A DNA stretch of 64,000 nt from Bacteroidaceae bacterium. Lineage in GTDB: Bacteria > Bacteroidota > Bacteroidia > Bacteroidales > Bacteroidaceae. Made by a program: the position numbers and the translations under genes. Positions 28,150-46,964 of the stretch are shown piece by piece (within the stretch, counting starts at the first letter, position 1; each line of letters opens with the position of its first letter). The notes below the pieces were generated by a model. That model was not told the origin of the DNA and searched no databases. It worked only from the letters and a program-made list of their open reading frames with translations. Location: contig JAFXGV010000026.1 of NCBI GenBank assembly GCA_017536765.1, forward strand, positions 1 to 64,000, read 5' to 3'.

Positions 28150-31100
28150 ATGGGATTTAACGAATTTATAAGCAAGCTATTCGGCAACAAAGCAAGCCGA
28201 GACAGACGTGAGATAGCTCCCTGGGTGGAGAAGATAAAAGCGGCCTACCCCGCCATAAACGCACTTAGCAACGACGAGCTGCGTGCTGCCACTGCCGCTT
28301 TGAAAGAGAAGATACAGGGAACGGTTACCGCCGAGCGCAACAGGATTGCCGAACTTAAGGCAAGCATAGAGAATACCGAGCTCGAAAAGCGCGAAAGCAT
28401 CTTCAACCAGATAGACAAATTGGAGAAAGAGGTTCTCGAAAAACTCGACGAGGCGCTCGACAAGGCATTGCCCGAGGCATTTGCCATTGTAAAGGACACC
28501 GCGCGCCGTTTCAGCGAGAACGAGACCATTGAGGTTACAGCCACAGAGTTCGACCGCGACCTTGCCGCCAAGTACGATTTTGTAACAATCGACGGTGACA
28601 AGGCAATATACAGGAACCACTGGACCGCCGGCGGCAACGACACCGTGTGGAATATGGTGCACTACGACGTGCAGCTATTCGGTGGCGTGGTGCTGCACAA
28701 GGGCCGCATTGCCGAGATGGCTACCGGTGAGGGTAAAACACTTGTGGCCACACTGCCCGTGTTCCTCAACGCCCTCACAGGCAACGGTGTGCACGTGGTA
28801 ACCGTGAACGACTACCTTGCAAAGCGCGACTCCGAGTGGATGGGGCCGCTTTATATGTTCCACGGCTTGAGCGTGGATTGCATAGACAAGCACCAGCCCA
28901 ATTCCGATGCCCGCCGCAACGCCTACCTTGCCGACATTACATTCGGTACCAACAACGAGTTCGGTTTCGACTACCTGCGCGACAATATGGCCACCCAGCC
29001 CGCCGACCTTGTTCAGCGTGTGCACAACTATGCCATTGTCGATGAGGTGGACTCGGTGCTCATTGACGATGCTCGTACCCCGCTTATCATTTCGGGCCCC
29101 GTGCCCCGCGGCGAGGACCAGCTGTTCGAGGAGTACCGCCCCTTGGTGGAGCGCCTGGTGGATGCACAGAAGAAACTTGCCACACAATACCTTGCCGATG
29201 CGCGCAAGCTCATATATTCCGACAACAAGGACGAGGTGACCGCCGGTTACCTGTCGCTTTTCCGCAGCCACAAGGCATTGCCCAAAAACAAGCCTCTTAT
29301 AAAGCTGCTGAGCGAGCCCGGCGTAAAGACAGGCCTTTTGAAGACCGAGGAGTACTACATTGAGCAGAACAATAAGCGTATGCCCGAGGCCACCGAGCCC
29401 CTCTTCTTTGTAATAGACGAGAAGAACAACAGCGTGGAACTCACTGACAAGGGTATAGAGCTCATTACGGGAAATGCCAAAGACCAGACACTCTTCGTAC
29501 TGCCCGACATAGCATCGGAGATGGCCGAGCTCGAGAACAACACCGAGCTTAGCAACGAGGAGAAGGCTGCCAAGAAGGATGAGATGCTCACCAACTACGC
29601 AGTGAAATCGGAACGCATACACACCATAAGCCAGCTGTTGAAGGCTTATACAATGTTCGACCGCGACGTGGAGTATGTGGTAACCGAGGATGGACAGGTG
29701 AAGATTGTAGATGAGCAGACAGGCCGTATTATGGAGGGCCGCCGCTACTCCGACGGTTTGCACCAGGCCATCGAGGCAAAAGAGCGTGTGAAGGTGGAGG
29801 CTGCTTCGCAGACATTTGCCACCATCACTTTGCAGAACTATTTCCGTATGTACCACAAGCTTGCCGGTATGACCGGTACAGCCGAGACCGAGGCCGGTGA
29901 GTTTTGGGATATCTACAAACTTGATGTGGTTGTAATCCCCACTAACCGCCCCATTGCCCGCGAGGATATGAACGACCGCGTTTATAAAACCAAACGCGAG
30001 AAATACAAAGCGGTAATAGAGGAGATTGAGAGCCTTGTGCAGCAGGGTCGCCCCGTGCTTGTAGGTACCACATCGGTTGAAATATCGGAAATGCTGAGCC
30101 GTATGCTCAAAATGCGCGGCATAGCACACAACGTACTTAACGCCAAACTGCACCAGAAGGAGGCCGACATTGTTGCAAAGGCCGGTCTTTCGGGCACGGT
30201 GACCATTGCAACCAATATGGCCGGCCGTGGTACCGACATCAAGTTGAGCGAGGAGGTACGCGCAGCAGGCGGTCTTGCCATCATAGGTACAGAACGCCAC
30301 GAATCGCGCCGTGTTGACAGGCAGCTGCGCGGACGTGCCGGCCGCCAGGGCGATCCCGGTTCTTCGGTATTCTTCGTGTCACTCGAGGACAACCTGATGC
30401 GCCTGTTCGGTTCGGAGCGTATCTCAAAAATACTCGACAGCAAGTTTATTGGCTTCAAGGATGGCGATATGATTGAGCATCCTATGATTTCGAGCTCCAT
30501 CGAGCGTGCGCAGAAAAAGGTGGAGGAGAACAACTTCGGTATCCGTAAGCGCCTGCTGGAGTACGACGACGTGATGAACAAGCAGCGTTCAGTCATATAC
30601 ACAAAACGCCGCCACGCACTCATAGGCGAGCGCATTGGTATGGATATAGTGAATATGGTGTGGGACCGTTGCTGCAACATTGTGGAGAATTGCGACTACG
30701 AGGATGCAAAAATGGAGTTCCTGCGCGTGCTCGCCAGCGAAATGCCCATTGCAAGCCAGGAAGAGTATCGCAAAATGGACACCGAGGAACTTGCCGAAAA
30801 ATGCTTCGAGGCTGTAATGAGCAACTTCAAGCAGAAAACCGAGCGTATGGCACAGGTGGCATACCCCTACATAGAGTACATATACAAGAACAACGAGCAG
30901 ATGCGCGACAAGCACATATATGTGCCCATCACCGATGGCCGCCACGTATATCAGATTCCCGTGCCTCTTGCCGCCGCATACGAAACAAAGGGCAAGGAGG
31001 TTATAAAGTGCTTTGAAAAGGCTATATTGCTACACACCATAGACAACGCCTGGAAGGAGAACTTGCGCGACCTCGACGAGCTCAAACACTCGGTGCAGAA

Positions 31101-31461
31101 CGCAAGCTACGAACAGAAAGACCCGTTGCTCATCTTCAAATTAGAGTCGGTTACCCTATTTGACAAGATGGTGAATAAGATAAACGACCAGACGGCATCC
31201 ATCCTGTTGCGCGGACAAATCCCCGTACAGGAGCGCCAGGATGTAAAGGTGGCACCCGACCCGCAGCGTAGCAAGCAGAAGCCCAAATACAACGAGACAA
31301 AGGTAGATTTGAACGACGCCAACCAGCAGGCTGCCGCACAACACGACACACGCGCCGAGCAGCGCACGCCCGTGAGAGCCGAAAAGACTGTGGGGCGCAA
31401 CGACCCCTGCCCTTGCGGCAGTGGCAAAAAGTTCAAACACTGCCACGGCAAGAACCTGTAA
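28150..31461 (+). CDS. secA: Preprotein translocase ATPase SecA
   Basis: The motor of the Sec export channel, 1103 residues (Bacteroidota SecA is about 1100; E. coli 901). Walker A lies in [20 protein letters not shown] near residue 190, DEAD-like Walker B in [20 protein letters not shown], and the helicase motif VI in [20 protein letters not shown]. The C-terminus carries the zinc finger [17 protein letters not shown] that binds SecB or ribosome. Extra residues sit in the first ATPase half (about 85-150 and 340-480). The preceding divergent region has a sigma-54-like site and a -7 element. Confidence 0.99.
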
Positions 31462-32113: not shown

Positions 32114-32761
32114 GTGAAAAACAGTAAAGAGGAAAATAGCAAAGAGGAGGTAAAGCAAAAGATAATTTCTGCTGCACTGGGCTTGTTTCGCAAGCAAGGA
32201 ATAAAAGAGGTAAAAATGGACGACATTGCCTCTTTAATTTCTGTATCGAAGCGTACCATTTATGAACTGTTCACCGACAAGGAGAACCTTATTATAGAGG
32301 CGCTGAAGTTGAGCCACGAGAGTGTTTCGGCCGAAGCAAAAGAGATTATCAGGAACTCCAACGACATCCTGGATATAATTCTTAAACTCTACGAGCTTTA
32401 TTTCAGGATTTTGAGCGAAACCAACAGACTGTTTTTTACCGACCTCGAACGATACCCCGAAGTTCTGAACCGCCGTAAAGCTCGCGAGAAAAAGAACAAC
32501 AAACGCTTTATTGCCTGGATGGAAGAGGGGCGCAAGCAGGGGCTGTTCCGCGAAGATGCCGACTTTGAGATACTCGCTTTTATATTGCAACGAGACCTGG
32601 AGCTCATTATGACGGTAAACAAGCAACCCGGCAACAGCGACCTCAGCCGCTACAAGCCCGAGGAGCTCGGCCGCCTGCTCATTCTGTTCTACCTGCGAGG
32701 CATTGCCACGGCAAAAGGACGAGAAAAGATTGAAGACTTTATACAGAAGAATAAACAATAA
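32114..32761 (+). CDS. TetR/AcrR-family transcriptional regulator of the efflux operon
   Basis: The product is about 215 residues. The N-terminal helix-turn-helix reads KQKIISAALGLFRKQGIKEV, then MDDIASLISVSKRTIYELFT, a clear TetR DNA-binding domain; the C-terminal helices form the ligand-binding and dimer part. Homology begins close to the GTG at 32114. An in-frame TTG at 32063 lies inside the operator and is rejected. With the promoter ending at 32109, the mRNA may be leaderless. It is followed 10 bases later by tolC, so it probably represses its own efflux operon until an inducer binds. Confidence 0.88.
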   Translation: MKNSKEENSKEEVKQKIISAALGLFRKQGIKEVKMDDIASLISVSKRTIYELFTDKENLIIEALKLSHESVSAEAKEIIRNSNDILDIILKLYELYFRILSETNRLFFTDLERYPEVLNRRKAREKKNNKRFIAWMEEGRKQGLFREDADFEILAFILQRDLELIMTVNKQPGNSDLSRYKPEELGRLLILFYLRGIATAKGREKIEDFIQKNKQ

Positions 32762-32771
32762 AATAACAATT

Positions 32772-34091
32772 ATGAATCTTAAAATGCGATTGACAACAGT
32801 GGTAGCCCTGCTGGCAATGTTAATGCCGGCACGTGCACAGGAGGCCACACCCACAATGCACCTTACACTCGACAAAGCCATTGAGCTTGCTATGAGCGAG
32901 AACCCCACAATAAAGGTTGCAGAGAAGGAGATTGAGTTGAAGAAGGTATCGAAGAACGAGGCTTGGCAGAACCTGCTGCCCACAGCAACGATTAACGGTA
33001 GCGTGAACTATGCAATAAAGGCGGCCGAGATGAACTTGGGCGGCCAGACATTCAAAATGGGTAAAGACGATGCAAGCACCTGGAACGGCACCCTGCAGGT
33101 ATCACTCCCCGTGTTTGCACCCGCAATATACAAGAGTATGAGCCTCACCAAGGCCGACGTGGAGCTTGCCGTGGAGAAGAGCCGCGGTTCAAAGATTGAC
33201 CTTGTGAACCAAGTAACAAAAGCATACTACCAGCTGATGCTTGCACAGGACTCTTACACCGTGCTGATGGAAAACTACAAGCTGGCCGAGGAGAATTTCA
33301 ACATTGTAAACGCAAAGTTCCAGCAGGGAAGCGTGAGCGAGTATGACAAGATAAGCGCCGAGGTACAAAAGAGCAACGCCTGGCCCTCTGTAATAAGCGG
33401 CAAAAACGCTGTGGAGATTGCCAAATTGCAACTGAAAGTGCTTATGGGCATTACAGCCGATGTGAACCTCGTGATTGACGACAACCTCAAAAACCACGAG
33501 AGCGAGATGGACAAGAATGCCGCAAAACAAGCCATCGACCTGCAGAACAACTCAGCATTGAGGAGCATCGACCTGCAAGCACAACTGCTCAAGAAGCAGC
33601 GTGGTTTGTTGAAAACCAACTTCTTGCCCACACTCGCCTTGTCGGGCAACCTGCAATACCAATCGCTTTACAACGAGGATTGGAAAGTTATGGACTACAC
33701 CTGGGGCAACAGCTCATCTGTAGCACTTTCGTTGAGCATTCCCCTGTTCCAGGCAAGCAATTTCACAAAGCTCAAAAGCAACAAGATACAGCAGTGGCAG
33801 CTTGCCGAGACACGCACCAACACCGAGCGTATGCTCAATATGCAGGCACAAAGCTACCTTGACAATATGACAAAGAGTGCCGAGCAGCTCGAGAGTAACA
33901 AAACCGCTGTGGAGCTTGCAAAGAAGGGGCTGGAGATAAGCCAAAAGCGTTACGACGTGGGTAAAGGCACCATTCTGGAGCTCACAAACTCGCAGGTATC
34001 GCTCACAAACGTACAGCTGAGCTACAATAACACCATATACGACTACTTGGTGGCAAAATCGGAATTGAACACAGTTTTAGGAAAGGAATAA
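32772..34091 (+). CDS. TolC-family outer-membrane efflux protein
   Basis: A 439-residue outer-membrane channel, with signal peptide to about residue 23 (MPARAQ). It has two outer-membrane-efflux-protein repeats: DKAIELAMSENPTIKVAEKE starts the first, and the helical hairpins around KAYYQLMLAQDSYTVLMENY and NGSVNYAIKAAEM recur in the second half (AKKGLEISQKRYDVGKGTIL). It forms the exit duct for the RND pump encoded downstream. The ATG at 32772 is used; the longer frame from 32703 overlaps tetR without homology. Confidence 0.92.
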   Translation: MNLKMRLTTVVALLAMLMPARAQEATPTMHLTLDKAIELAMSENPTIKVAEKEIELKKVSKNEAWQNLLPTATINGSVNYAIKAAEMNLGGQTFKMGKDDASTWNGTLQVSLPVFAPAIYKSMSLTKADVELAVEKSRGSKIDLVNQVTKAYYQLMLAQDSYTVLMENYKLAEENFNIVNAKFQQGSVSEYDKISAEVQKSNAWPSVISGKNAVEIAKLQLKVLMGITADVNLVIDDNLKNHESEMDKNAAKQAIDLQNNSALRSIDLQAQLLKKQRGLLKTNFLPTLALSGNLQYQSLYNEDWKVMDYTWGNSSSVALSLSIPLFQASNFTKLKSNKIQQWQLAETRTNTERMLNMQAQSYLDNMTKSAEQLESNKTAVELAKKGLEISQKRYDVGKGTILELTNSQVSLTNVQLSYNNTIYDYLVAKSELNTVLGKE

Positions 34092-34105
34092 AAACAAAAC
34101 TTTGT

Positions 34106-34187
34106 TTTGTCATTCTGAGCATTAGCGAAGAATCTCATACAAAAAGCAATAGGGATTTTTCATCCTTGCAGTCGTCAAAATGACAAA
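34106..34187. repeat. REP-like intergenic repeat with terminal inverted repeats
   Basis: Nine-base ends TTTGTCATT (34106-34114) and AATGACAAA (34179-34187) are exact reverse complements, and the left part continues GTCATTCTGAGC, then AGCGAAGAATCT, a string known as a dispersed intergenic repeat in many bacterial genomes. The centre is divergent, so the element looks decayed. It separates tolC from the adaptor gene within the operon. Confidence 0.5.
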
Positions 34188-34222
34188 GAGAAGAAACAAA
34201 CAAAAAAAACATATAGACGATT

Positions 34223-35251
34223 ATGAAAAAGAATCTGACATTTATCGCATTGGCCGCAACTGCCATTCTATGTTCTTGCGGCAGTTCAGAGAAAACAGAG
34301 ACAGCTGAAACCACACAGGTGGAGGTGCAGCAGGAGAAACCCAAAGTGAAGATTGCACAGGTGGTAGCCGAGGAGGTTGCACAGCTTGAGCAATACACTA
34401 CAACCGTGGAGGCCGAGGTTAAGAACAACATCATTCCCAGCTCGGCACTGCGCATCGAAAAGATTCTTGTTGAGGTGGGCGACAACGTGCGCAAAGGCCA
34501 GAAACTGGTATTGCTCGATGCAAGCAGCCTCGACCAGTTGAAACTGCAGGTTGAGAATCAGGAGATAGATTTCAAACGCATTGAGGAGCTCTACAAAGTG
34601 GGCGGTGCCTCAAAAGCAGAATACGATAACGCCAAGACACAGTTGGAGGTAAACAAGCGTGCACTTGCCAACAAGTTGGAGAACACTGTGCTTGTGAGCC
34701 CCATCGACGGTGTCGTATCGGCACGTAACTACGACAACGGCGATATGTATGGCAGCAAGCCCATTTTAGTGGTGGAGCAGATTTCTCCCGTGAAGATGAA
34801 GATAAATGTGAGCGAGAGCCTCTATGCACAGACCAACAAGAGCTTGGCAGTAACAGCCACATTCGACACTTATGGCGATGAAAAATTCACAGGAAAGATT
34901 GATATTATATACCCCACTATCGATGCAACCACACACACATTCCCCGTGGAGATTAAGATTGCCAACAATGACCGCAAGGTGCGCCCCGGTATGTTTGGGC
35001 AAGTAACAGTGAACTTTGGTACAAAGAGCCACGTGGTTGTGCCCGACCAGGCTGTCGTTAAGCAGGCCGGTGCAGGCGATTACTATGTTTACACATACGA
35101 AAACGGAAGAGTTACATATAACAAGGTAGAACTTGGCCGTCGTATGGGCGACAAATATGAGCTCATTTCGGGTATCGAACCCGGCAGTTCTGTTGTAATT
35201 GCAGGACACACAGGGCTCAACAATGGCAAAGAAGTTGAAGTGATTGAATAA
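34223..35251 (+). CDS. RND efflux periplasmic adaptor (membrane fusion protein)
   Basis: A 342-residue lipoprotein (CSC, Cys19) linking pump and TolC. Two biotinyl-lipoyl halves surround a short hairpin: LRIEKILVEVGDNVRKGQKL, then ENTVLVSPIDGVVSARNYDN. A beta-barrel domain (FDTYGDEKFTGKIDII) and membrane-proximal domain follow. Compact size fits the AcrA/MexA family without a long coiled-coil. Between tolC and the RND gene. Confidence 0.93.
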   Translation: MKKNLTFIALAATAILCSCGSSEKTETAETTQVEVQQEKPKVKIAQVVAEEVAQLEQYTTTVEAEVKNNIIPSSALRIEKILVEVGDNVRKGQKLVLLDASSLDQLKLQVENQEIDFKRIEELYKVGGASKAEYDNAKTQLEVNKRALANKLENTVLVSPIDGVVSARNYDNGDMYGSKPILVVEQISPVKMKINVSESLYAQTNKSLAVTATFDTYGDEKFTGKIDIIYPTIDATTHTFPVEIKIANNDRKVRPGMFGQVTVNFGTKSHVVVPDQAVVKQAGAGDYYVYTYENGRVTYNKVELGRRMGDKYELISGIEPGSSVVIAGHTGLNNGKEVEVIE

Positions 35252-35274
35252 TAACACAATAAACATTATATAAT

Positions 35275-38200
35275 ATGAGCATATATGAAAGTGCGGTGAA
35301 AAAACCGATTATGACATCGCTATGCTTTATTGCGATTGCTCTATTCGGCCTTTTCTCGCTATCAAAACTCCCCATCGACCTATATCCCGATATTGAGACA
35401 AACACTCTTATGGTATTTACATACTATAACGGTGCAAGTGCTTCGGATATTGAGAACAATGTAACACGCCCATTGGAGAACACTCTTAACTCAGTGGAAC
35501 ACCTCAAGCACATCAAATCGGATTCGCGTGAGAATGTATCGGTTATCACACTTGAGTTTGAGTTCGGATACGATATAGACAACCTCACCAACGACGTGCG
35601 CGACAAGTTAGATATGGTATCATCGTCGCTCCCCGACGAGGCCAACACGCCTATCATCTTCAAATTCTCTACCGATATGATTCCCATCATTGTAATGTCG
35701 GTAAAGGCCGAAGAGAGCCAGAGCGCACTATACAAAATACTTGATGACAATGTGGCCAACCCCCTTGCCCGTATCGACGGTGTGGGTTCAGTATCTATCG
35801 CCGGTGCTCCCGAGCGCGAGATAAACATCTATATGGACCCTATAAAAATGGAGGCATACAATATACCCGTGGAGACTGTAAGTTCTATAATTGCGGCCGA
35901 AAACCGCAATATCCCGGGTGGCAACTTCGATGTGGGTAACAACACCTATTCGCTGCGTGTTGAAGGCGAATTTAAGGATCCTCGCCAGATGATGGATCTT
36001 GTTGTGGGCACACACAACGGTGCCAATGTATATTTGAAGGATATTGCCCGCATTGTTGACAACGTACAAGAGCGCTCGCAGCACACATACATAGAGGGCC
36101 AGCAGGGAGCTATGATTATTGTGCAGAAGCAGAGCGGTGGTAACTCGGTTGCAATCTCCAAAGCAGTAAAAGAAGAGCTCCCCAATCTGCAAAAGCGCCT
36201 GCCCTCGGATGTGGAACTTGAAATAATGATTGACACATCGGACAATATTCTAAACACTGTAAACACACTTTCGAGCACCATACGCGATGCTATGATATTT
36301 GTGGTACTTGTGGTATTCATCTTCCTTGGCCGATGGAGAGCTACAGTGATTATTGCTATTACCATTCCCTTCTCGCTTGTAGCATCATTCATTTATCTGT
36401 TTGCAACGGGTGGTTCAATAAACATTATTTCGCTATCCTGTTTAAGTATCGCCATTGGTTCGGTTGTAGACGACGCCATCGTGGTATTGGAGAACGTAAC
36501 ATCGCATATTGAACGAGGTTCAGACCCCAACAATGCCGCCGTGCACGGTACCAATGAGGTTGCAGTTTCGGTTATAGCATCTACCCTGACTATGTGGGCC
36601 GTATTCTTCCCATTGACTATGGTTACCGGTATGAGTGGAGTCCTCTTTAAGCAACTTGGTTGGATGATGTGTATCATTATGCTCATATCAACAGCAGCCG
36701 CCCTTTCACTCACACCTATGATGTGTGCAAAGATGCTTAAACTGCAGAAGAAACAGAGCAAGTTCTTCATAACCTTCTACAAACCCATTCAAAAGGTACT
36801 CGACATCATTGATATTAAATATGCAATTGCAGTAAACTGGGCAATGCGCCACCGCTGGACAACGCTTGCAGCCTGTTTCGGTCTCTTCTTGGTGAGTTTG
36901 CTTTGTGCAAAAGGTATCAAGAGCGAGTTCTTCCCTGCAAACGACAACGGCCGTGTGGGAGTAAGCTTGGAAATGCCTATAGGCACACGTATAGAGCGTT
37001 CACAGGAGGTTGGTTTGCGCCTCACCAAACTATGGATGGACCGCTATGGTGACCAGCTCATTGCCTGCGGTTTCACAACAGGACAAGCCGACGAGAATAA
37101 CACTTTTGCTTCGCTCAGTGACAACGGTACTCACATCATATCGTTTAACATAATGTTTGTACCCTCGAACGAACGCGAAAAGAGTCTTGAAATCCTATGC
37201 GACGAAATGCGTGCCGACCTTAAGATGTTCCCCGAACTTGCCAAAAGCAATGTAATGCTTGGCGGTAGTCAAGGTGGTGGTATGGGTGGCCAGTCTATGG
37301 CATCGTTCGAGATATACGGATACGATATGGAAACAACCGACCGCCTATCAAAAGAACTTGCATCATCGCTAAGGGAGTGGGAAAAAGTGACACAGGTAAA
37401 CATCAGCCGTAGCGACTACCAACCGCAATATATAGTTGATTTTGACCGCGAAAAACTGGCAATGCACGGTCTCAACCTATCTACTGCAGCAAATTATATG
37501 CGTAACCGCTACAATGGAGCGCTTGCCACATACTACCGCGAAGATGGTGATGAATACGACGTAAAAGTACGTTATGAGCCCAATGCACGCCAGAGCATAA
37601 ACGACATTGAGAACATTGTTATATATGGCAGCAACGGACAGCCTGTACGCATAAAGGAACTCGGTAAAGTTGTACTTAACGAAATGCCCCCTACCATTGA
37701 GCGTAAGGATCGTGAGCGCATCGTTACCGTAGATGCGGTACTTGCAGCCGGAACAGCGCTTAGCGATGGAGTGAACTACGGACAAGCTATTATTGACAAG
37801 ATGGATATCCCTGCCGGAATATCTATTGAGGTGGCCGGTTCGTACGAGGACCAACAGGATTCTAATCGCGACCTCGGACAACTTGCAATCATCATCCTTG
37901 TGATGGTATTCATAGTGATGGCATCGCAGTTCGAATCGCTCACCTACCCCTTCATTCTTATGATATCGGTGCTATTTGCGATAAGTGGTGTATTGCTTGC
38001 CCTCTTCATTACCGGTACCAACCTTAATGTAATGTCGATGCTTGGTAGCATTATGCTTATAGGTATTGTTGTGAAGAATGGTATTGTGCTCATAGACTAT
38101 ACTATGCTGTTGCGCGAAAGAGGTCTTGGTGTTATTCAGGCCTGCGTAGGCGCAGCCAAGAGCCGTATGCGTCCCGTGCTTATGACCACCCTCACCACCA

Positions 38201-38457
38201 TTCTTGGTATGGTGCCTTTGGCAGTGAGCCAAGGTGTAGGTGCCGAGATGTGGCGTCCTTTGGGTATTGCCATCATAGGCGGTCTCACGGTATCCACTAT
38301 AATGACACTTATATACGTACCTGCAATGTATGGTATATTTGCCGGTAACGGTATCCAGAACCGTCGCCGCGCCATAAAGAAACAGCGCGAGTTACAGGCA
38401 TACTGGAACGAGAATAAAGAGACAGAGCAATTAAAAGGCAAAGACAAAAAGCATTAA
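35275..38457 (+). CDS. RND-family multidrug efflux transporter (AcrB-type permease)
   Basis: A 1060-residue proton-driven inner-membrane pump in two homologous halves. The N-terminal YESAVKKPIMTSLCFIAIAL and PIDLYPDIETNTLMVFTYY are standard. TM4 carries the proton-relay pair Asp-Asp in IAIGSVVDDAIVVLENVTSH. The two periplasmic loops hold the porter domains; the second half has GYSEDQQDSNRD-like and IVVKNGIVLIDYTMLLRERG motifs. Substrate could be drugs, bile acids or lipids; not determinable. Cotranscribed with tetR, tolC, adaptor and the PII-like gene. Confidence 0.96.
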   Translation: MSIYESAVKKPIMTSLCFIAIALFGLFSLSKLPIDLYPDIETNTLMVFTYYNGASASDIENNVTRPLENTLNSVEHLKHIKSDSRENVSVITLEFEFGYDIDNLTNDVRDKLDMVSSSLPDEANTPIIFKFSTDMIPIIVMSVKAEESQSALYKILDDNVANPLARIDGVGSVSIAGAPEREINIYMDPIKMEAYNIPVETVSSIIAAENRNIPGGNFDVGNNTYSLRVEGEFKDPRQMMDLVVGTHNGANVYLKDIARIVDNVQERSQHTYIEGQQGAMIIVQKQSGGNSVAISKAVKEELPNLQKRLPSDVELEIMIDTSDNILNTVNTLSSTIRDAMIFVVLVVFIFLGRWRATVIIAITIPFSLVASFIYLFATGGSINIISLSCLSIAIGSVVDDAIVVLENVTSHIERGSDPNNAAVHGTNEVAVSVIASTLTMWAVFFPLTMVTGMSGVLFKQLGWMMCIIMLISTAAALSLTPMMCAKMLKLQKKQSKFFITFYKPIQKVLDIIDIKYAIAVNWAMRHRWTTLAACFGLFLVSLLCAKGIKSEFFPANDNGRVGVSLEMPIGTRIERSQEVGLRLTKLWMDRYGDQLIACGFTTGQADENNTFASLSDNGTHIISFNIMFVPSNEREKSLEILCDEMRADLKMFPELAKSNVMLGGSQGGGMGGQSMASFEIYGYDMETTDRLSKELASSLREWEKVTQVNISRSDYQPQYIVDFDREKLAMHGLNLSTAANYMRNRYNGALATYYREDGDEYDVKVRYEPNARQSINDIENIVIYGSNGQPVRIKELGKVVLNEMPPTIERKDRERIVTVDAVLAAGTALSDGVNYGQAIIDKMDIPAGISIEVAGSYEDQQDSNRDLGQLAIIILVMVFIVMASQFESLTYPFILMISVLFAISGVLLALFITGTNLNVMSMLGSIMLIGIVVKNGIVLIDYTMLLRERGLGVIQACVGAAKSRMRPVLMTTLTTILGMVPLAVSQGVGAEMWRPLGIAIIGGLTVSTIMTLIYVPAMYGIFAGNGIQNRRRAIKKQRELQAYWNENKETEQLKGKDKKH

Positions 38458-38913: not shown

Positions 38914-40104
38914 ATGACAAGAACACTTACACACACCATAAAACAACTGTTCATAGCCTTTGCATTTATTGCAATGGCGCTGCAACCTGTCCGTGCCGGT
39001 GAGGCACGGGTGAGTCTGCTCACCTGCTCCCCCGGCGAGGAGGTATATGAACTGTTCGGCCACACAGCCCTGCGATACACCGACGACAAGAGCGATATCG
39101 TGTTCGGATATGGCTACTTCAGTTTCAACACCCCCAATTTCGTATGGCGCTTCATTCTTGGGGAAACCGATTATATGGCAGGTGCCGTGGATTACAGCAG
39201 TTTCATTGAAGAGTACAGGCTGCGCGGGGCGGGTGTAACCGAACAGATTATTCCACTCGATTCGCTTCAAAAGGAGCAGCTGCTGCGGGCACTTATAACC
39301 AACTGCCGAATGGAGAACCGTGTTTACCGGTACAACTATTTCTACAACAACTGCACAACCAAAATACGCGACATACTCACCGAGCACATAGGTGCAGGGA
39401 ATATTGAATATAACGCACCCTTGCAGGCAGCAACAATACGAGAGGCCCTTGCCGCACACACCGCTGTGCAGCCGTGGAGCGAATTCGGCATAAACCTGTT
39501 GCTTGGCGCCGACATCGATGCCCCTGCCACAAGCGATGTATTGCAGTTTCTTCCGGCCTATCTGATGAACGATTTTGCCACTGCGCAGATAACAGGCGAG
39601 GCGGGCAACCGCCCGCTGGTGAGCGAGCAGAAGGAGCTGTTGCAACCTGTGGAGAAGGCAAAAACGCCCAACCACCTCACCCCCTTCAACTGCGCTCTGC
39701 TGCTGTTGCTCTTCACTATGATAATTATGCTGTGCGAGGTGCGCAGCCACAGGATATTCTGGGGTTACGACATACTGCTTATGGGAACACAGGGCTTAGC
39801 CGGCACGTTGCTGCTGTTTATGACAACCTGCTCGCAGCATCCTGCGGTGGATAACAATTTCCTGCTTATATGGCTTAACCCACTGCCGCTCTTACTGCTG
39901 CCCCTGCTCATATATTGCGCGATAAAACATAAACACCCCACGTTTATGTGGATACAGGTGGCTATGGTTGTGGCATTTATAATAAGTGCTCCATTTGTAC
40001 CGCAGCATTACCCCGCCCCCATTTTCATCTATTCGACATCTATACTTGTACGTTCAATTTTTCACATATACCGAGAAAGAATATGCGAATTAAGCCTTTA
40101 TTGA
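38914..40104 (+). CDS. DUF4105 protein, Lnb-like (candidate lipoprotein N-acyltransferase)
   Basis: The product is 396 residues. A signal segment (about 10-29) is followed by a periplasmic DUF4105 domain (about 30-250) in which His50 (YELFGHTALR) and Cys147 (YNNCTTK) are the conserved potential catalytic pair. The C-terminal part (from about 265) has roughly five transmembrane helices and the conserved TCSQHPAVDNNFLLIWLNPL. This architecture fits Lnb, recently linked to lipoprotein N-acylation in Bacteroides; I recall that assignment and cannot verify it here. The ATG at 38914 is used, not the upstream frame. It overlaps the next gene by 22 bases. Confidence 0.75.
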   Translation: MTRTLTHTIKQLFIAFAFIAMALQPVRAGEARVSLLTCSPGEEVYELFGHTALRYTDDKSDIVFGYGYFSFNTPNFVWRFILGETDYMAGAVDYSSFIEEYRLRGAGVTEQIIPLDSLQKEQLLRALITNCRMENRVYRYNYFYNNCTTKIRDILTEHIGAGNIEYNAPLQAATIREALAAHTAVQPWSEFGINLLLGADIDAPATSDVLQFLPAYLMNDFATAQITGEAGNRPLVSEQKELLQPVEKAKTPNHLTPFNCALLLLLFTMIIMLCEVRSHRIFWGYDILLMGTQGLAGTLLLFMTTCSQHPAVDNNFLLIWLNPLPLLLLPLLIYCAIKHKHPTFMWIQVAMVVAFIISAPFVPQHYPAPIFIYSTSILVRSIFHIYRERICELSLY

Positions 40105-41627
40105 TTACATTGCTTGCACTCCCCTTGCTGTTGCAAGCACAGGAGAAGATAGAATCGCCCAAGCTTTTGGTTACAATAACAATAGACCAGCTGCGTAGCG
40201 ATTTTATGTATGAGTTCGAGGACCTATATACCCCCGACGGTTTCAAGCGTCTGCTGGCGGGAGGGCGTGTATATCCCAACAGTTACTATGCCTTCGAGAA
40301 CATCGACCGTGCATCGGCCACAGCCACTCTTGTTACCGGCACCAACCCATACACGCACGGCATTGTTGGCGAACGATGGCTCGACCGCCATTCGTTGAAC
40401 ATTGTAGGGTGTGCCGACGACAGCAAACAGCAGGGATTATACACCAATGATAAGGTGTCGCCGGTGAAGCTGAAAGCCATAGCCCTTGCCGACGAGATAA
40501 AACGCGCCACACGCGGCAAAGCGCAGGTGTGCGTGATAGCCCCCGACTGCGAAGCGGCAGTAATGCAGGGCGGGCACGCTGCCGATGTGGTGCTGTGGAA
40601 GAACGACGACACCGGTTACTGGTGCAGTTCGTCGTACTACGGCCTCTTCCCCGACTGGGCTGCTAATATAAACAAGACAATTGTGGGCCGTTCGGCAAAA
40701 TGGGAACCAATATTCCCCACCGAGCTATACAATAATTTTGGCGACAAAGCCCCCAAGCAATTCTCATACTCGTTCAACGGAAAGGATGACATACGCCTGT
40801 ACAAGACAAGCGCCTGTATGAACGACGAGGTGAACGAGGTGGCTATTGCCTGTCTGCGCAGTGGCGATATGGGAATGGACAACATAACCGATATGCTGTC
40901 GGTTACATACTACGCGGGCAACTACAACAATGTATCTATGGAGGACCGCCCCATTGAGATACAGGATATATACACCCGCCTCGACAAGAACATTGCCGAC
41001 CTTTTGAAGGAGATTGACCGTCGCATAGGATTAGAGAATGTGGTAATATCATTGGCATCCACGGGATATGTGGTGGAGGACGATTCCAACGATGAGAAAT
41101 ACCGCCTGCCATCGGGCACCGTGCATATGGACCGCGTGAAAGCCCTGTTGAACGTATATTTGAGCGCCCTCTTTGGCAAAGGGGATTACATAGACGGTTA
41201 CTTCAACTCGGAGTTCTACCTCAACCGCAAAATGATGGAGCAACTGCAACTTAACAAGGTGGATATTGTAGCCCACGCCGTGGAGTTCCTCAAAACGATT
41301 GACGGCATAGAAGATGTATTTACCATTTACCGTTTGGGCGGTATGCTAAGCCCCGAACTGCAATATGTGAAGAACGGCTACAACGCAAAATGCTCGGGCG
41401 ACATATGGTTGCGCCTTATGCCCGGCTGGAAGATGGCAAAGGACGTGCTGGAGGCAAGCAATCTTGTGCGCCGCAGCCCTGTGACATTCCCGATGATTAT
41501 ATTTGGTACAGGGGTAAAGGCCGAGGTGATAAACGAATTCACGCCTGCCAACATCATTGCTCCAGAACTTGCCAACAGCCTGCACATACGCCGCCCCAAC
41601 GACAATTGTTTGAGAATATTCAGGTAA
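40083..41627 (+). CDS. Alkaline-phosphatase-fold protein lacking most metal ligands (likely pseudoenzyme)
   Basis: A secreted protein of 514 residues with signal peptide (1-20). The fold is that of type I phosphodiesterase/PafA-like alkaline phosphatase: LLVTITIDQLRSDFMYEFED at the start and LVTGTNPYTHGIVGERWLD at about 83-101. Asp35 is kept. The nucleophile loop reads RASATAT (76-82). Where the family has DxxGH the sequence is YYAGN (276-280); where it has ADHG it is ASTG (325-328); and near residue 468 the His is replaced (PVTFP). A catalytic zinc site is improbable. It overlaps the Lnb-like gene and may act as its partner. Confidence 0.75.
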   Translation: MRIKPLLITLLALPLLLQAQEKIESPKLLVTITIDQLRSDFMYEFEDLYTPDGFKRLLAGGRVYPNSYYAFENIDRASATATLVTGTNPYTHGIVGERWLDRHSLNIVGCADDSKQQGLYTNDKVSPVKLKAIALADEIKRATRGKAQVCVIAPDCEAAVMQGGHAADVVLWKNDDTGYWCSSSYYGLFPDWAANINKTIVGRSAKWEPIFPTELYNNFGDKAPKQFSYSFNGKDDIRLYKTSACMNDEVNEVAIACLRSGDMGMDNITDMLSVTYYAGNYNNVSMEDRPIEIQDIYTRLDKNIADLLKEIDRRIGLENVVISLASTGYVVEDDSNDEKYRLPSGTVHMDRVKALLNVYLSALFGKGDYIDGYFNSEFYLNRKMMEQLQLNKVDIVAHAVEFLKTIDGIEDVFTIYRLGGMLSPELQYVKNGYNAKCSGDIWLRLMPGWKMAKDVLEASNLVRRSPVTFPMIIFGTGVKAEVINEFTPANIIAPELANSLHIRRPNDNCLRIFR

Positions 41628-41718: not shown

Positions 41719-42447
41719 TTGAACCTTATAATCGACATAGGAAACAACAGCGCCAAGTTCTTTCTTTTCAGCGGAGCGCAGATGATACTGCATACACGAC
41801 GCGAAAAGAATTACCGCGAATTATTGCAGGAATGGAGCGCGCAATATGGCATTGAACGAGCCATAGTTTCCACAGTCGTAGACCTCACGGAAGAGGAAAA
41901 AGGAGATATAGAGGAACTCGGCTGCCCCATACTGTGGTTCAGCAACCAAACACCTATGCCCATAGGCATAAAATACAGCACACCGCACACTTTGGGGTGC
42001 GACCGCCTGGCTGCCGCCATTGGCGCTATGGGCGAAGCCCCCGCACGCAACCTTTTGGTAATAGATGCAGGTAGTGCCATAACCATCGATTTTGTGGACA
42101 AGGAGGGAAATTTCCGTTGCGGTAATATAGCCCCGGGAGTGAAAATGCGTCTGAGGGCACTGCACGAGTTTACCGCCCGCCTGCCACTTGTGAACAAGGA
42201 GGGTGATACACCCACGCTTGGCTACGACACCGAAACAGCCATACGCAGCGGAGTTATCAGAGGTATTTGCCACGAAATAGATGGATACATTAACGAAATA
42301 AGGGAAATTTATGGTGATGTTTTTGTTTTTTTAACGGGTGGAGACGAAAAAACATTGATAAATAACATAAAAAATCGCATCTTTGCCGATAAATTCCTCG
42401 TTGCGAAAGGATTGAACAAGATTTTATCTTATTATGATATTAAATAG
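41719..42447 (+). CDS. coaX: Type III pantothenate kinase (CoaX)
   Basis: A 242-residue cytosolic kinase that phosphorylates pantothenate in the first step of coenzyme A synthesis. The phosphate-binding motif LIIDIGNNSAKFFLF begins at residue 3. Further motifs: GCDRLAAAIGA and NLLVIDAGSAITIDFVD with the catalytic Asp, and VFLTGGDEKTL near the C-terminus. The start is TTG, since no ATG or GTG lies near the conserved N-terminus. The 3' end overlaps the next gene by 14 bases, placing it first in the envelope cluster. Confidence 0.93.
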   Translation: MNLIIDIGNNSAKFFLFSGAQMILHTRREKNYRELLQEWSAQYGIERAIVSTVVDLTEEEKGDIEELGCPILWFSNQTPMPIGIKYSTPHTLGCDRLAAAIGAMGEAPARNLLVIDAGSAITIDFVDKEGNFRCGNIAPGVKMRLRALHEFTARLPLVNKEGDTPTLGYDTETAIRSGVIRGICHEIDGYINEIREIYGDVFVFLTGGDEKTLINNIKNRIFADKFLVAKGLNKILSYYDIK

Positions 42448-43675
42448 AGTAATATTTACATTTATTTTAACAATAACAACCATTGTGGCTGCCGTGGCCG
42501 ACAATGGTATAAACTCCCCCTACTCGCGTTATGGTATGGGAGTGCTGGCCGACCAGAACTTAGGCGTAAACCGCCAGATGGGCGGCTTGGGATATGCCTT
42601 GCGCAGTGGCAGCTACATAAACCTGCTTAACCCCGCCTCTTTTGCCGCAGCCGACACGCTCACTATGCTGTTCGATGCCGGTTTCTCCATTCAAAACGTG
42701 AATTTCAAAGAGGGCAACGTGCAGAAGAATGCCAAGAACGGCAGTTTCGACTACCTGGCAATGCAGTTCCGCGCCTACAAGAACGTGGGTGTGAGCATAG
42801 GTTTCCTCCCCTACTCCAACGTGGGTTACTCATTTGCCACAAGCACAAGCGAAGGAGGCAAGGAGAGCACCAGCAACTACAATGGCGAGGGTGGCATATA
42901 CCAGCCATACATAGGTGTGGGTTGGTCACCCGTAAAAAACCTGTCGGTGGGAATGATGGCATCGTATATTTATGGCGATATCTCGCACACCATATACAAC
43001 AACTTTGCCGAGAGCAACATCACCGATATGCAGCGCCAATACTTGGTCGATGTGAGAAGCTACAAATTAGATTTCGGAGCGCAATACACCGCGGAACTAA
43101 ACAACAAGCACAAGATAACATTTGGTGCCACATATTCGTTAGGACACGATTTGGGTGCCGATGCAATGAAGATTGAAACCATTACGACAAGCGACACCAC
43201 AAAGATTGACGGTGCATTTTCACTTCCACATACTTTCGGCATTGGTGTATTATATAACTACAACGACAATTGGAAGATTGGTGCCGACTACACATTCCAG
43301 GATTGGAGCAAGGCCGGTTTCTTCGGGCACGACAAGGGTGTGAGCCGCAGCAAGGTATCGGTAGGTGCCGAGTACTCGCCCAACAAGATGATGTCACGCA
43401 ACCTTTTGAAGAAGATGAACTACCGTATGGGAGCATTCTATGCGCAACCCTACACCGAAGTGCAGGGACAAAAAGGGTGCGAGGAGTATGGTCTCAGTGC
43501 CGGCTTCTCAATGCCCATCATCAACAGAATAAACAACCGCTCGGTACTGCACGTATCGGGGCAGCTTATAAGAATGGAGCCTAAAGGAGCAGGCCTCATT
43601 GCCGAAACCTATATGCGCCTGAACATAGGCCTCACATTCAACGAAAGCTGGTTTATGAAGATAAGAGTGAGATAA
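42434..43675 (+). CDS. Outer-membrane beta-barrel protein, FadL/OmpP1-like
   Basis: The product is 413 residues with a signal peptide (about 1-22). The N-terminus NGINSPYSRYGMGVLADQNL and RQMGGLGYALRSGSYINLLN, then alternating hydrophobic strands up to the terminal LNIGLTFNESWFMKIRVR, show a long-chain-fatty-acid-transporter-like barrel. Members of this Bacteroidota group have no assigned substrate. It overlaps coaX and is followed 18 bases later by the TPR gene; the order coaX-OMP-TPR-lptC seems to be a conserved unit. Confidence 0.8.
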   Translation: MILNRVIFTFILTITTIVAAVADNGINSPYSRYGMGVLADQNLGVNRQMGGLGYALRSGSYINLLNPASFAAADTLTMLFDAGFSIQNVNFKEGNVQKNAKNGSFDYLAMQFRAYKNVGVSIGFLPYSNVGYSFATSTSEGGKESTSNYNGEGGIYQPYIGVGWSPVKNLSVGMMASYIYGDISHTIYNNFAESNITDMQRQYLVDVRSYKLDFGAQYTAELNNKHKITFGATYSLGHDLGADAMKIETITTSDTTKIDGAFSLPHTFGIGVLYNYNDNWKIGADYTFQDWSKAGFFGHDKGVSRSKVSVGAEYSPNKMMSRNLLKKMNYRMGAFYAQPYTEVQGQKGCEEYGLSAGFSMPIINRINNRSVLHVSGQLIRMEPKGAGLIAETYMRLNIGLTFNESWFMKIRVR

Positions 43676-43693
43676 ACAAAATAATTAAGAGAT

Positions 43694-45133
43694 ATGAAAA
43701 AAAGCATTTTAGTACTTATGACACTTGCCGTTTCTTGCCTATATGCACAGAACGGAATCACAAACAACACACGATTCGGCGTGGGAGAGGATAGTTTGAA
43801 ATGCACCGAGAACATCTTCCTTGTGAACCAGGCCGTTAAAGGCAGCAAACCCAAATACGACGATTGTGTGCAGGCTTATCCCCTGTGGAAAGACATCTTC
43901 ACCAATTTCCCCGTTGCACGCGTGGATACTTACACAAATGGCACAAAACTGCTAAAGGCTCTCATTGCAAAAGAGACCGATGCAGCAAAGAAGGCTGTTT
44001 ACATAGAGGAACTTATGGCAACATACGACCAGGAGATAAAATACCTCGACTACTTGCAGGAGATAACCAAGACTCCCCTTTCAAAGGGCGAAATCCTTGG
44101 TAAGAAGGCACTCGACTACATACAGATTGTTCCCAATGCCGACCTTGACCAGGCATATGATATGCTTGCAGAATCGGTGGGCATCGAGAAAGGCCAGTCG
44201 GACTTCAAGGTGACAGAGCAGTTTATGAAACAGTCGGCTCTCAAATACAAGAGAAACAAAGAGGGCCACGGCGAGCAGATTATCGAGGACTACTTGAATG
44301 CATCGGTTTACATTGTGGACGTACTCGATAAATATTACGAGAGAATAGAGCACTACACCAACAAATACAACGAGTATGGCGATCCCAAGGACAGCACACG
44401 CGCAGCAGGATACAGCACATACATCGACTATTCACGTATTGCACGTAACAACATAGATGCCTATTTCATAAACAGCGGTGCTGCCAAGTGCGAGGACCTC
44501 AACGAGATATACGCAGCAAAGGTTGAGGAGAACAAAGACAACATCGAGTACCTGAACAAGGTTATTTCGGTAATGGGTATGCTTAAGTGTACCAACGAAG
44601 ATACATACCTCACAGCATCGGAGTATGCTCTTGCCATAGAGCCCACAGCCAAGGCTGCTATGGGTTGCGGTTACCGCTACTACAAGAAGGGCGAGATTGA
44701 CAAGGCTATGGAGCTCTTCGACCAGGCTATCGAACTTGAAACATCTGTTACCAACAAGGCCGATATGTGCTACAAGGTTGGTGCAGTATACTATGGTTTG
44801 AAAAAGTTCATCAAGGCACGTGAGTATGCACAGAAGGCTATTGCGCTCAACTCCAAGTTCGGCCAGCCCTATATTCTTATTGCACAGTGCTACGCTGCCA
44901 ACCCCAACTGGAGCGAGGATGGCGTGATGAACCGTTGTACATACTATGCAGCGCTCGACAAACTCTACCGCGCAAAGGCTGTCGATCCCTCGGTAAAGAA
45001 GGAGGCCGACAAGTTCATCGGTACATACAAATCGTACTTGCCCGAGATTAGCGACATCTTTATGAAGGGTTACAAGAGCGGTTCAAAAATAACCATTGGT
45101 GGCTGGATAAATGAAACAACAACAATTCAGTAA
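43694..45133 (+). CDS. Periplasmic TPR-repeat protein
   Basis: The product is 479 residues with a signal peptide (to about 18). Long helical pairs cover the whole length; the clearest tetratricopeptide repeats lie near residues 315-390 (YRYYKKGEIDKAMELFDQAI, YYGLKKFIKAREYAQKAIAL). No enzymatic part. TPR proteins usually hold other proteins together; position between an outer-membrane barrel and lptC suggests a role in envelope assembly. Its end overlaps lptC by 23 bases. Confidence 0.82.
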   Translation: MKKSILVLMTLAVSCLYAQNGITNNTRFGVGEDSLKCTENIFLVNQAVKGSKPKYDDCVQAYPLWKDIFTNFPVARVDTYTNGTKLLKALIAKETDAAKKAVYIEELMATYDQEIKYLDYLQEITKTPLSKGEILGKKALDYIQIVPNADLDQAYDMLAESVGIEKGQSDFKVTEQFMKQSALKYKRNKEGHGEQIIEDYLNASVYIVDVLDKYYERIEHYTNKYNEYGDPKDSTRAAGYSTYIDYSRIARNNIDAYFINSGAAKCEDLNEIYAAKVEENKDNIEYLNKVISVMGMLKCTNEDTYLTASEYALAIEPTAKAAMGCGYRYYKKGEIDKAMELFDQAIELETSVTNKADMCYKVGAVYYGLKKFIKAREYAQKAIALNSKFGQPYILIAQCYAANPNWSEDGVMNRCTYYAALDKLYRAKAVDPSVKKEADKFIGTYKSYLPEISDIFMKGYKSGSKITIGGWINETTTIQ

Positions 45134-45695
45134 AGTGTATAATAATATAATAGGTACAACAATCGCATTTTTTGCGATTGTTGTGCTGTTTTTTCAATTT
45201 TCTTGCCAAAGCGGCAAGAAAAAAGAGGCTGTTGCCTTTGAAGAACCCGATTCCATTGCTATGATGAGCACCTACGGGGTAAGCACCCTCATAAGCGATT
45301 CGGGAAGAATAAGCTACAAGATTGATGCCGAGGAGTGGATGGTATATGACAAGCGCAACCCACCCCATTGGGCATTTGAAAAGGGCGCAATGCTAGAAAA
45401 ATATGACAGAGATATGAATGTGGAGGCTGTTATAAAGTGTGACACAGCATATTTCTACACCGATGCCAAATTGTGGAAACTTATTGGCAACGTGGATATA
45501 AGAAACATAAAGAACGAGAAATTCTTTACCGACCTGCTCTACTGGAGCCAGGAGGAAAAACGCATCTATTCCGATGCATACATAAAAATTGAACAAGAAG
45601 ACCAAATAACCGAGGGGTATGGGTTCACAGCCGACCAGAATCTCGACACCTGGCTCATTAAGAACACCAAAGGAATATACCCCATCGGAGAATAA
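45111..45695 (+). CDS. lptC: LPS export periplasmic protein LptC
   Basis: The product is 194 residues with one N-terminal membrane segment ending in FQFSC (Cys32), then a beta-jellyroll LptC domain (about 55-190): EEWMVYDKRNPPHWAFEKGA, NVEAVIKCDTAYFYTDAKLW and LIGNVDIRNIKNEKFFTDLL. LptC takes LPS from the LptBFG transporter and hands it to LptA. It is longer at the C-terminus than E. coli LptC. Overlap with the TPR gene implies coupled translation. Confidence 0.9.
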   Translation: MKQQQFSKVYNNIIGTTIAFFAIVVLFFQFSCQSGKKKEAVAFEEPDSIAMMSTYGVSTLISDSGRISYKIDAEEWMVYDKRNPPHWAFEKGAMLEKYDRDMNVEAVIKCDTAYFYTDAKLWKLIGNVDIRNIKNEKFFTDLLYWSQEEKRIYSDAYIKIEQEDQITEGYGFTADQNLDTWLIKNTKGIYPIGE

Positions 45696-45701
45696 TCATA
45701 T

Positions 45702-46964
45702 ATGACAACCACCTTTATTCTATTAGTTATCGTTATACTATTGTCGGCTCTGTTCTCGGGAATGGAAATTGCCTTCATAGCATCGAACAAGCTGCTTATG
45801 GGCATCGACCTGAATGAACGCAACGCAACATCTTATGTACTAAACCGTTTCTATTCGAACAGCAACAATTTCATATCGGCCCTGCTTGTCGGTAACAACA
45901 TAGTGCTTGTTATCTATGGTATATTGATGGCCGACATACTGAACACCCTGTTCCTTGAGGAGCTTACCACATCAACCTCACTGAGGCTCATTTTAGAAAC
46001 GGTAATATCTACCGTGGTAATTATACTCACAGGTGAATTTGTGCCCAAGGCTCTCTTTAGAGCGAACCCCAACGGAGCATTGAAAAGATTTGCCCTTTTC
46101 ACATACCTGCTGTATATACTGCTCTATCCCCTATCGCGTTTCACCAGCTGGCTTGCGTGCGTAGTGATGCGTATGTTCAACATAAAGATTGAGAAAGAGA
46201 CACGAGAAACAACCTTCTCGAAACGCGAGCTCAACAACCTGATACAGGATTCTATAGAGAATGCAAAAGAGGAGGAGGAGATTGACAACGATGTGAGGAT
46301 ATTCCAAAATGTACTCGACTTTTCAAACATCAAGGTGCGCGACTGCTATGTGCCCCGCACCGAAATTGAGGCAGTGGAGATAAACACCCCGTTGGAGGAG
46401 CTGAAGAGCCTTTTCATAGAGTCGGGGCACTCGAAGATTGTTGTATTCAAGGAGAACATTGACAACATCATAGGCTACATACACTCATCGGAACTATTCC
46501 GTAATGCCAACAAATGGCAGCAACGCATATGCCGTATGCCCATTGTACCCGAAACACTGTCGGCACACAAGCTTATGCGCACACTTATGCAGCAGAAGAA
46601 GTCGCTTGCGGTGGTGGTTGACGAGTTTGGCGGCACATCGGGCATAATATCGCTCGAAGACCTTGTAGAAGAGATATTTGGCGAAATAGAGGACGAACAC
46701 GACAACACAAACCACGTTGCAAAGGTGTTGAACACAGGCGAGTACCTGCTGTCGTGCCGTTTGGAGATTGAGAGAGTGAACGAGATGTTCGACTTGGGAA
46801 TACCCGAATCGGAAGAATATCAGACACTTGGTGGTTTCATTCTTGCCAAGCACCAGCGTTTCCCCGCACTGAACGAAACAATAAAAATTGGCAAATTCCA
46901 AATACAGATTATAAAGAAACACAGCACCAAGATTGAACTTGTAAAATTAAAGATTCTCGACTGA
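45702..46964 (+). CDS. CNNM/CBS-domain membrane protein (hemolysin/CorC family)
   Basis: The product is 420 residues: DUF21 (CNNM) transmembrane domain about 1-185 with SGMEIAFIASNKLLMG, two CBS domains about 205-330 (VPRTEIEAVEINTPLEELKS, KSLAVVVDEFGGTSGIISLE) and a CorC_HlyC domain to the end. Members are linked to Mg2+/Co2+ handling, and in gliding Bacteroidota to GldE. The former name hemolysin is misleading. Starts 6 bases after lptC. Confidence 0.9.
   Translation: MTTTFILLVIVILLSALFSGMEIAFIASNKLLMGIDLNERNATSYVLNRFYSNSNNFISALLVGNNIVLVIYGILMADILNTLFLEELTTSTSLRLILETVISTVVIILTGEFVPKALFRANPNGALKRFALFTYLLYILLYPLSRFTSWLACVVMRMFNIKIEKETRETTFSKRELNNLIQDSIENAKEEEEIDNDVRIFQNVLDFSNIKVRDCYVPRTEIEAVEINTPLEELKSLFIESGHSKIVVFKENIDNIIGYIHSSELFRNANKWQQRICRMPIVPETLSAHKLMRTLMQQKKSLAVVVDEFGGTSGIISLEDLVEEIFGEIEDEHDNTNHVAKVLNTGEYLLSCRLEIERVNEMFDLGIPESEEYQTLGGFILAKHQRFPALNETIKIGKFQIQIIKKHSTKIELVKLKILD

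Follow-up and report, generated by a model that had tools for sequence, protein, structure and literature searches.

A predicted PafA-fold pseudophosphatase without its metal site is linked to the lipoprotein N-acyltransferase Lnb in Bacteroidales

Lipoproteins carry out the bulk of surface nutrient capture in gut Bacteroidales, and the enzyme that attaches their final fatty acid, Lnb, was not identified until 2024. Proteins of the alkaline phosphatase superfamily are known from the envelope both as enzymes, such as PafA of Elizabethkingia meningoseptica (structure 5TJ3), and as domains without the typical catalytic residues, as in the periplasmic part of PbgA/YejM/LapC, which acts in envelope lipid homeostasis (PMC7018646), although the inactivity of YejM is disputed and one paper argues that it is a metalloenzyme (PMC7576196). 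Here we describe a gene for a PafA-like protein that lies directly behind, and overlaps, a gene for Lnb in the genome of a Bacteroidaceae bacterium (assembly GCA_017536765.1, contig JAFXGV010000026.1). The window, meaning the whole stretch of DNA that was analyzed, comprises positions 1 to 64 000 of that contig.

In profile searches the open reading frame matched PF01663 of Pfam with 68.8 bits, whereas its score against the PafA equivalog model NF042991 of NCBIfam was 280 bits and did not reach the cut-off of 650. The nearest solved chain in a sequence search was PafA (5TJ3, E = 2.8e-45). An AlphaFold2 model, computed from an alignment with 49 members of the clade defined below, had a mean predicted local distance difference test score (pLDDT) of 87.7 and a predicted template modelling score (pTM) of 0.87, and its top match by VIA-align was again 5TJ3, with Z 47.2, a root-mean-square deviation of 3.1 over 479 of the 514 residues and 26% identity; Foldseek agreed on the fold. 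The preliminary description of this gene, made from the sequence alone, had proposed that the fold motifs were kept, and structure prediction thus gave the same picture, in that the PafA-type fold of the alkaline phosphatase superfamily is, according to the model, retained over the full length while the metal site is gone. The product carries a Sec-type signal peptide, as do most homologues at their N-termini, and is expected to be periplasmic or secreted.

The residues of the window protein at the catalytic positions were read from the sequence alignment to 5TJ3 and not from model coordinates, and those at T79, N100, K162 and R164 were fixed, in the same alignment, also by the 5TOO mutant (T79S, N100A, K162A and R164A). 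The remaining catalytic positions of PafA we take to be D38, D305, H309, D352, H353 and H486. In this two-zinc site the alignment leaves only D38, as D35 of the window protein, while the nucleophile and phosphate-binding set T79/N100/K162/R164 has become R76/E97/D155/E157, Glu97 standing in the place of Asn100, with none kept. Asp38 is thereby the only survivor of the ten metal, nucleophile and phosphate-binding residues of PafA, just as the preliminary description had it when noting that the first Asp alone remains. The same description had read the DxxGH motif as YYAGN, a register that proved to be off, as DxxGH aligns to NYNNV (residues 280–284), but the conclusion of a loss stands; it had also reported the late His near residue 468 as gone, and there the loss was borne out (H486 to S459) while the position was not, residue 468 corresponding to H495 of PafA. 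The loss centred on this site: nine of the ten catalytic columns were lost, against 23 of the remaining 69 invariant columns (Fisher p = 0.001).

Homologues were gathered from sampled genomes of the order Bacteroidales, of an additional family (f42) and of the wider class, most of these genomes being metagenome-assembled or unnamed, and seven metal/nucleophile residues were scored in each homologue. The 68 sequences encoded adjacent to Lnb and the six fused to it kept one or two of the seven, and these, together with two members having Lnb elsewhere in the genome, make up a clade set of 76, all of which kept at most two. Among 63 non-redundant members, one residue was kept in 58 and two in five. 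All 23 homologues sampled from elsewhere in the class were intact with seven of seven residues, as were seven unlinked copies within Bacteroidales, the intact homologues numbering 31 in all. At the level of sequence this comparison confirmed that the loss is not due to chance, since 76 members keep no more than two of seven residues while 31 homologues are intact. A loss limited to the genus of the window was also considered and was ruled out by its occurrence across the 76 members.

In a tree computed without the catalytic columns, the Lnb-linked clade formed a single branch of 55 rows with a Shimodaira–Hasegawa-like approximate likelihood ratio support of 99, which takes in a few unlinked rows from f42 and f31; unlinked, partly degenerate Bacteroidales copies stood beside it and intact PafA outside. 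A quick method was used for two trees. The alkaline-phosphatase fold with most metal ligands missing, first described for the window gene, is thus a property of a whole clade. Positions conserved specifically in the clade were L37, G118, K140, P154, P209, K241, Q294, T327, G328, R351, L355, A362 and R503. An acid was found at the position of Lys162 or Arg164 in 61 of the 76 members and a basic residue at either of them in only one, and 34 members had Arg or Lys at the nucleophile position. Because acids substitute for Lys and Arg, and Arg or Lys is often found in place of the nucleophile, we infer that phosphate would no longer be bound by the old pocket; an Asp35–Arg76 salt bridge may have taken the place of zinc.

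The copies adjoining the clade in the tree (L078-L100, from G386, G191, G351, G085, G064, G195 and others) form a second PafA-like set of other Bacteroidales, unlinked to Lnb and with a graded loss of metal ligands, mostly keeping one to five of seven. One of them, L091, was intact with seven of seven and scored 689 against NF042991. With regard to a conserved neighbour of these unlinked, partly degenerate relatives, the best candidate was shared by just five of 19 loci.

The ratio of non-synonymous to synonymous substitution rates (dN/dS) of the window gene against four close relatives was 0.026–0.091, mostly lower than that of Lnb in the same genomes (0.085–0.130), and on the strength of these values, which point to purifying selection, we regard the product as a functional protein. 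A neglected gene or pseudogene was ruled out by the same ratios together with the full-length conservation. Selection for a non-catalytic function, as had been suggested for the window gene, agrees with the clade-wide loss of catalytic residues, the intact fold and the low dN/dS.

The upstream gene was identified as Lnb. Its score of 371 bits against NF051878 falls under the curated cut-off of 550, but that cut-off was passed by only three of 393 sampled genomes of the order and low scores are thus usual there; the His and Cys columns of Lnb were kept in 90 of 90 readable rows. In 68 loci Lnb was the gene immediately upstream of the pseudophosphatase, in the same orientation, with an overlap or a gap of at most 10 nt in 52 of these pairs, overlaps of 4 and 22 nt being the commonest, the latter also the one noted earlier for the window. 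When wider gene context was compared over many families, all 36 loci had Lnb at position –1 on the same strand and 34 of them had SecA at +1, the identity of SecA having been confirmed by Pfam for two examples; owing to the common ancestry of relatives, such counts of adjacency cannot be taken as independent. Mere local synteny was rejected as an explanation, as only Lnb and SecA persist while other neighbours change. In the window lineage the pair was intact even where the adjoining CoaX-BamG-LptC block was inverted. In genus g176 of f42 (L117:5679-6671 and L118:4970-6025) the Lnb frame was shortened to about 330 residues and seems to be without the last membrane helices, with its end overlapped by the pseudophosphatase gene.

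In six genomes of f42, from five genera (L108, L140-L144), the two proteins were encoded as one uninterrupted frame of 914–937 residues, with Lnb and its membrane helices followed by a basic linker, a hydrophobic segment at the site of the old signal peptide and the phosphatase fold. A sequencing artefact was ruled out here, the frames being without stops in six genomes of five genera. For L108, Pfam gave the domains Lnb_N, 5TMH_Lnb and Phosphodiest, and a simple hydropathy method gave six membrane segments besides a signal-like one, the sixth lying at residues 396–414, although the count of membrane segments was less complete in some other fusions. The former signal peptide thus appears to have become a sixth transmembrane helix; with it, the segments of L108 fit an Lnb C-terminus inside and a phosphatase domain outside, so that the latter appears to share the periplasmic side with the catalytic domain of Lnb. 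In the phosphatase and Lnb trees alike, the fused L141 grouped as sister of L145, which is unfused, and this suggests that fusion arose at least twice, or once with later splits. That the window gene might encode a partner of a lipoprotein-modifying enzyme, an idea raised in the preliminary description on the basis of its overlap with a DUF4105 gene, is thus backed by adjacency to Lnb kept across Bacteroidales and by fusions, and the association of the pseudophosphatase with Lnb is well supported.

A clade member together with Lnb was carried by at least 68 genomes of the order sample, in which Lnb itself occurred in 191 of 393. Lnb was present in 68 of 69 assignable genomes with the pseudophosphatase (Fisher 2.7e-25 on the 68, with kinship ignored), the exception, G239, being a 65% complete genome with a likely clade member and no Lnb match. 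In f42, all 40 genomes with a match had Lnb, although the match in G446, located at the end of a contig, was only partial. As nearly all carriers have Lnb while Lnb often stands alone, the pseudophosphatase is, judging from these distributions, dependent on Lnb and not the reverse. The reduced genomes G091 and G345 (L111 and L112; about 1.0–1.2 Mb) had Lnb and CoaX still as neighbours with the pseudophosphatase lost, and it was retained in G193 and G280 of the same family. Outside Bacteroidales, the listed copies of Lnb and PafA that were compared were never adjacent, lying on different contigs or far apart.

The dead site, the kept fold, the constraint, the overlapping genes, the repeated fusion and the one-way co-occurrence together lead us to propose, as the likely explanation, that in the periplasm the protein serves as a non-catalytic accessory subunit of Lnb, the inner-membrane lipoprotein N-acyltransferase of Bacteroidales. 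A PafA-type protein presumed to be catalytically dead would be exported to the periplasm, where the separate form would dock on Lnb and either hold or position a substrate or gate the activity of Lnb, on the outer side of the inner membrane and close to the site at which lipoproteins emerge from the Sec translocon; as a guess, the substrate could be the emerging diacylated lipoprotein or else the phospholipid that donates the acyl chain. The dead phosphatase is then probably a working part or a regulator of lipoprotein assembly. More tentatively, and leaning somewhat against it, we can picture a two-part machine for lipoprotein N-acylation in Bacteroidales, consisting of Lnb and a pseudoenzyme subunit that was derived a single time from PafA and recognizes the lipoprotein or phospholipid substrate at the Sec exit, in parallel to PbgA/YejM, the lipid regulator with a phosphatase fold in enterobacteria.

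Several observations weigh against an accessory subunit. Lnb is reportedly active alone in E. coli. Lnb without the pseudophosphatase was common, as seen in f68, in reduced f91 genomes and across many other families, and the pseudophosphatase can thus not be strictly required for Lnb; given that certain lineages have retained Lnb alone, the acylation chemistry itself can probably proceed without the pseudophosphatase. In f42 and f31, not every clade member was encoded next to Lnb. Finally, an AlphaFold2 model of the L108 fusion had good domains (pLDDT 88), but its pTM of 0.63 was too low to define a docked arrangement of the halves.

The persistence of SecA could alternatively mean that the protein is a partner in protein export, acting at the exit side of SecA/SecYEG and linking translocation to lipoprotein maturation, with the adjacency to Lnb reflecting a shared cluster and not contact. 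SecA followed directly in most relatives outside the window lineage and f42, as counted above, and in f31 (L103) the gene has remained with SecA while Lnb is elsewhere. We nonetheless consider this explanation unlikely, since no SecA was found near the fusions or the f42 pairs, the window lineage has kept the Lnb pair with SecA separated, the fusions seen were to Lnb and none to a Sec component, and SecA is cytosolic while the pseudophosphatase is exported. Irrespective of that, the order Lnb–pseudophosphatase–SecA was kept in many Bacteroidales families (L048-L077 and others), which ties the Sec ATPase to lipoprotein maturation, and in f68 (L109 and L110) SecA came right after Lnb, the pseudophosphatase being absent.

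That the protein is exported in a soluble form in most species, and that a few clade members are unlinked yet found in Lnb-bearing genomes, could also fit an independent periplasmic binding protein or sensor, for example of lysophospholipid from Lnb, co-expressed with Lnb and unbound to it; this we hold to be quite improbable in view of the repeated covalent fusion and of the acids that have replaced Lys and Arg in the old phosphate pocket of most members. Continued activity as an enzyme of the phosphatase superfamily, either metal-free or relying on different residues, would agree with Asp35 being kept in nearly all members and with Ser78/Thr80 near the old nucleophile, but is very improbable as the clade conserves no alternative set of metal-type residues and so often has Arg or Lys at the nucleophile position.

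Table 1. Coordinates of the Lnb–pseudophosphatase locus and of the aligned active-site positions in the window.
Feature	Position	Strand	Remarks
SecA	28150..31461	+	About 7.5 kb upstream of the window Lnb
Lnb, lipoprotein N-acyltransferase (DUF4105)	38914..40104	+	Catalytic His and Cys present; PF13387 85 bits, PF25221 130 bits
Overlap of Lnb stop region and pseudophosphatase start	40083..40104	+	22 nt, from gene coordinates
Pseudophosphatase gene, PafA fold without metal site	40083..41627	+	514 residues
Signal peptide, Sec-type, residues 1–19 (MRIKPLLITLLALPLLLQA)	40083..40139	+	No lipobox Cys; from sequence, cleavage site judged by eye
Asp35, aligned with PafA Asp38	40185..40187	+	Sole metal ligand kept; acidic in 75 of 76 clade members
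Arg76, at PafA nucleophile Thr79	40308..40310	+	Alignment
Asp155 and Glu157, at PafA Lys162 and Arg164	40545..40553	+	Phosphate-binding positions, charge reversal; alignment
Asn280...Val284, at PafA Asp305/His309	40920..40934	+	Alignment
Thr327-Gly328 (STG motif), at PafA Asp352/His353	41061..41066	+	Alignment
Ser459, at PafA His486	41457..41459	+	Alignment; register less sure because of low local pLDDT (455–460)

With regard to the surroundings of the pair in the window, a TolC-like protein, a periplasmic adaptor and a resistance–nodulation–division transporter are encoded at 32703-38457, between SecA and Lnb, and this set has apparently split a once contiguous cluster in the window lineage. 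Profile searches identified CoaX, BamG, a tetratricopeptide repeat protein and LptC downstream of the pseudophosphatase; the genes following CoaX, at 42434-46964, encode these last three and a GldE-like CNNM/CorC protein, forming an envelope-biogenesis cluster that is conserved in close relatives, with inverted orientation in L009-L017.

The literature searched, which did not cover the original Lnb paper, held no report linking Lnb to a phosphatase-fold neighbour and nothing on essentiality of the gene, and the text of PMC12994826 (PLoS Biol), which covers the context of DUF4105, mentions neither phosphatase nor phosphodiesterase. No described family names the Lnb-linked pseudophosphatase, and databases file the clade members only under generic phosphodiesterase/phosphatase models, so that in gut genomes they may be wrongly counted as phosphatase activity. 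If the protein is indeed a conserved pseudoenzyme partner of Lnb, it would be an unrecognized component of the lipoprotein maturation pathway, and the six natural fusions offer ready-made constructs for structure work.

Comparing the protein with the known systems, Lnb (NF051878; PF13387 and PF25221) is encoded next door and forms the N-terminal half of the six fusions, but it is the partner that carries out catalysis, its His and Cys being conserved, and has an unrelated fold. PafA shares homology over the whole length, the fold and export; it differs in retaining the metal site as well as Thr79, Asn100, Lys162 and Arg164, whereas the window protein keeps only the residue corresponding to Asp38 and is linked to Lnb. 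PbgA/YejM/LapC resembles it in having a periplasmic domain of the phosphatase superfamily, reportedly without the typical catalytic residues, beside a membrane module, but belongs to another branch of the superfamily, has a membrane module that is not Lnb and has not been described with an acyltransferase.
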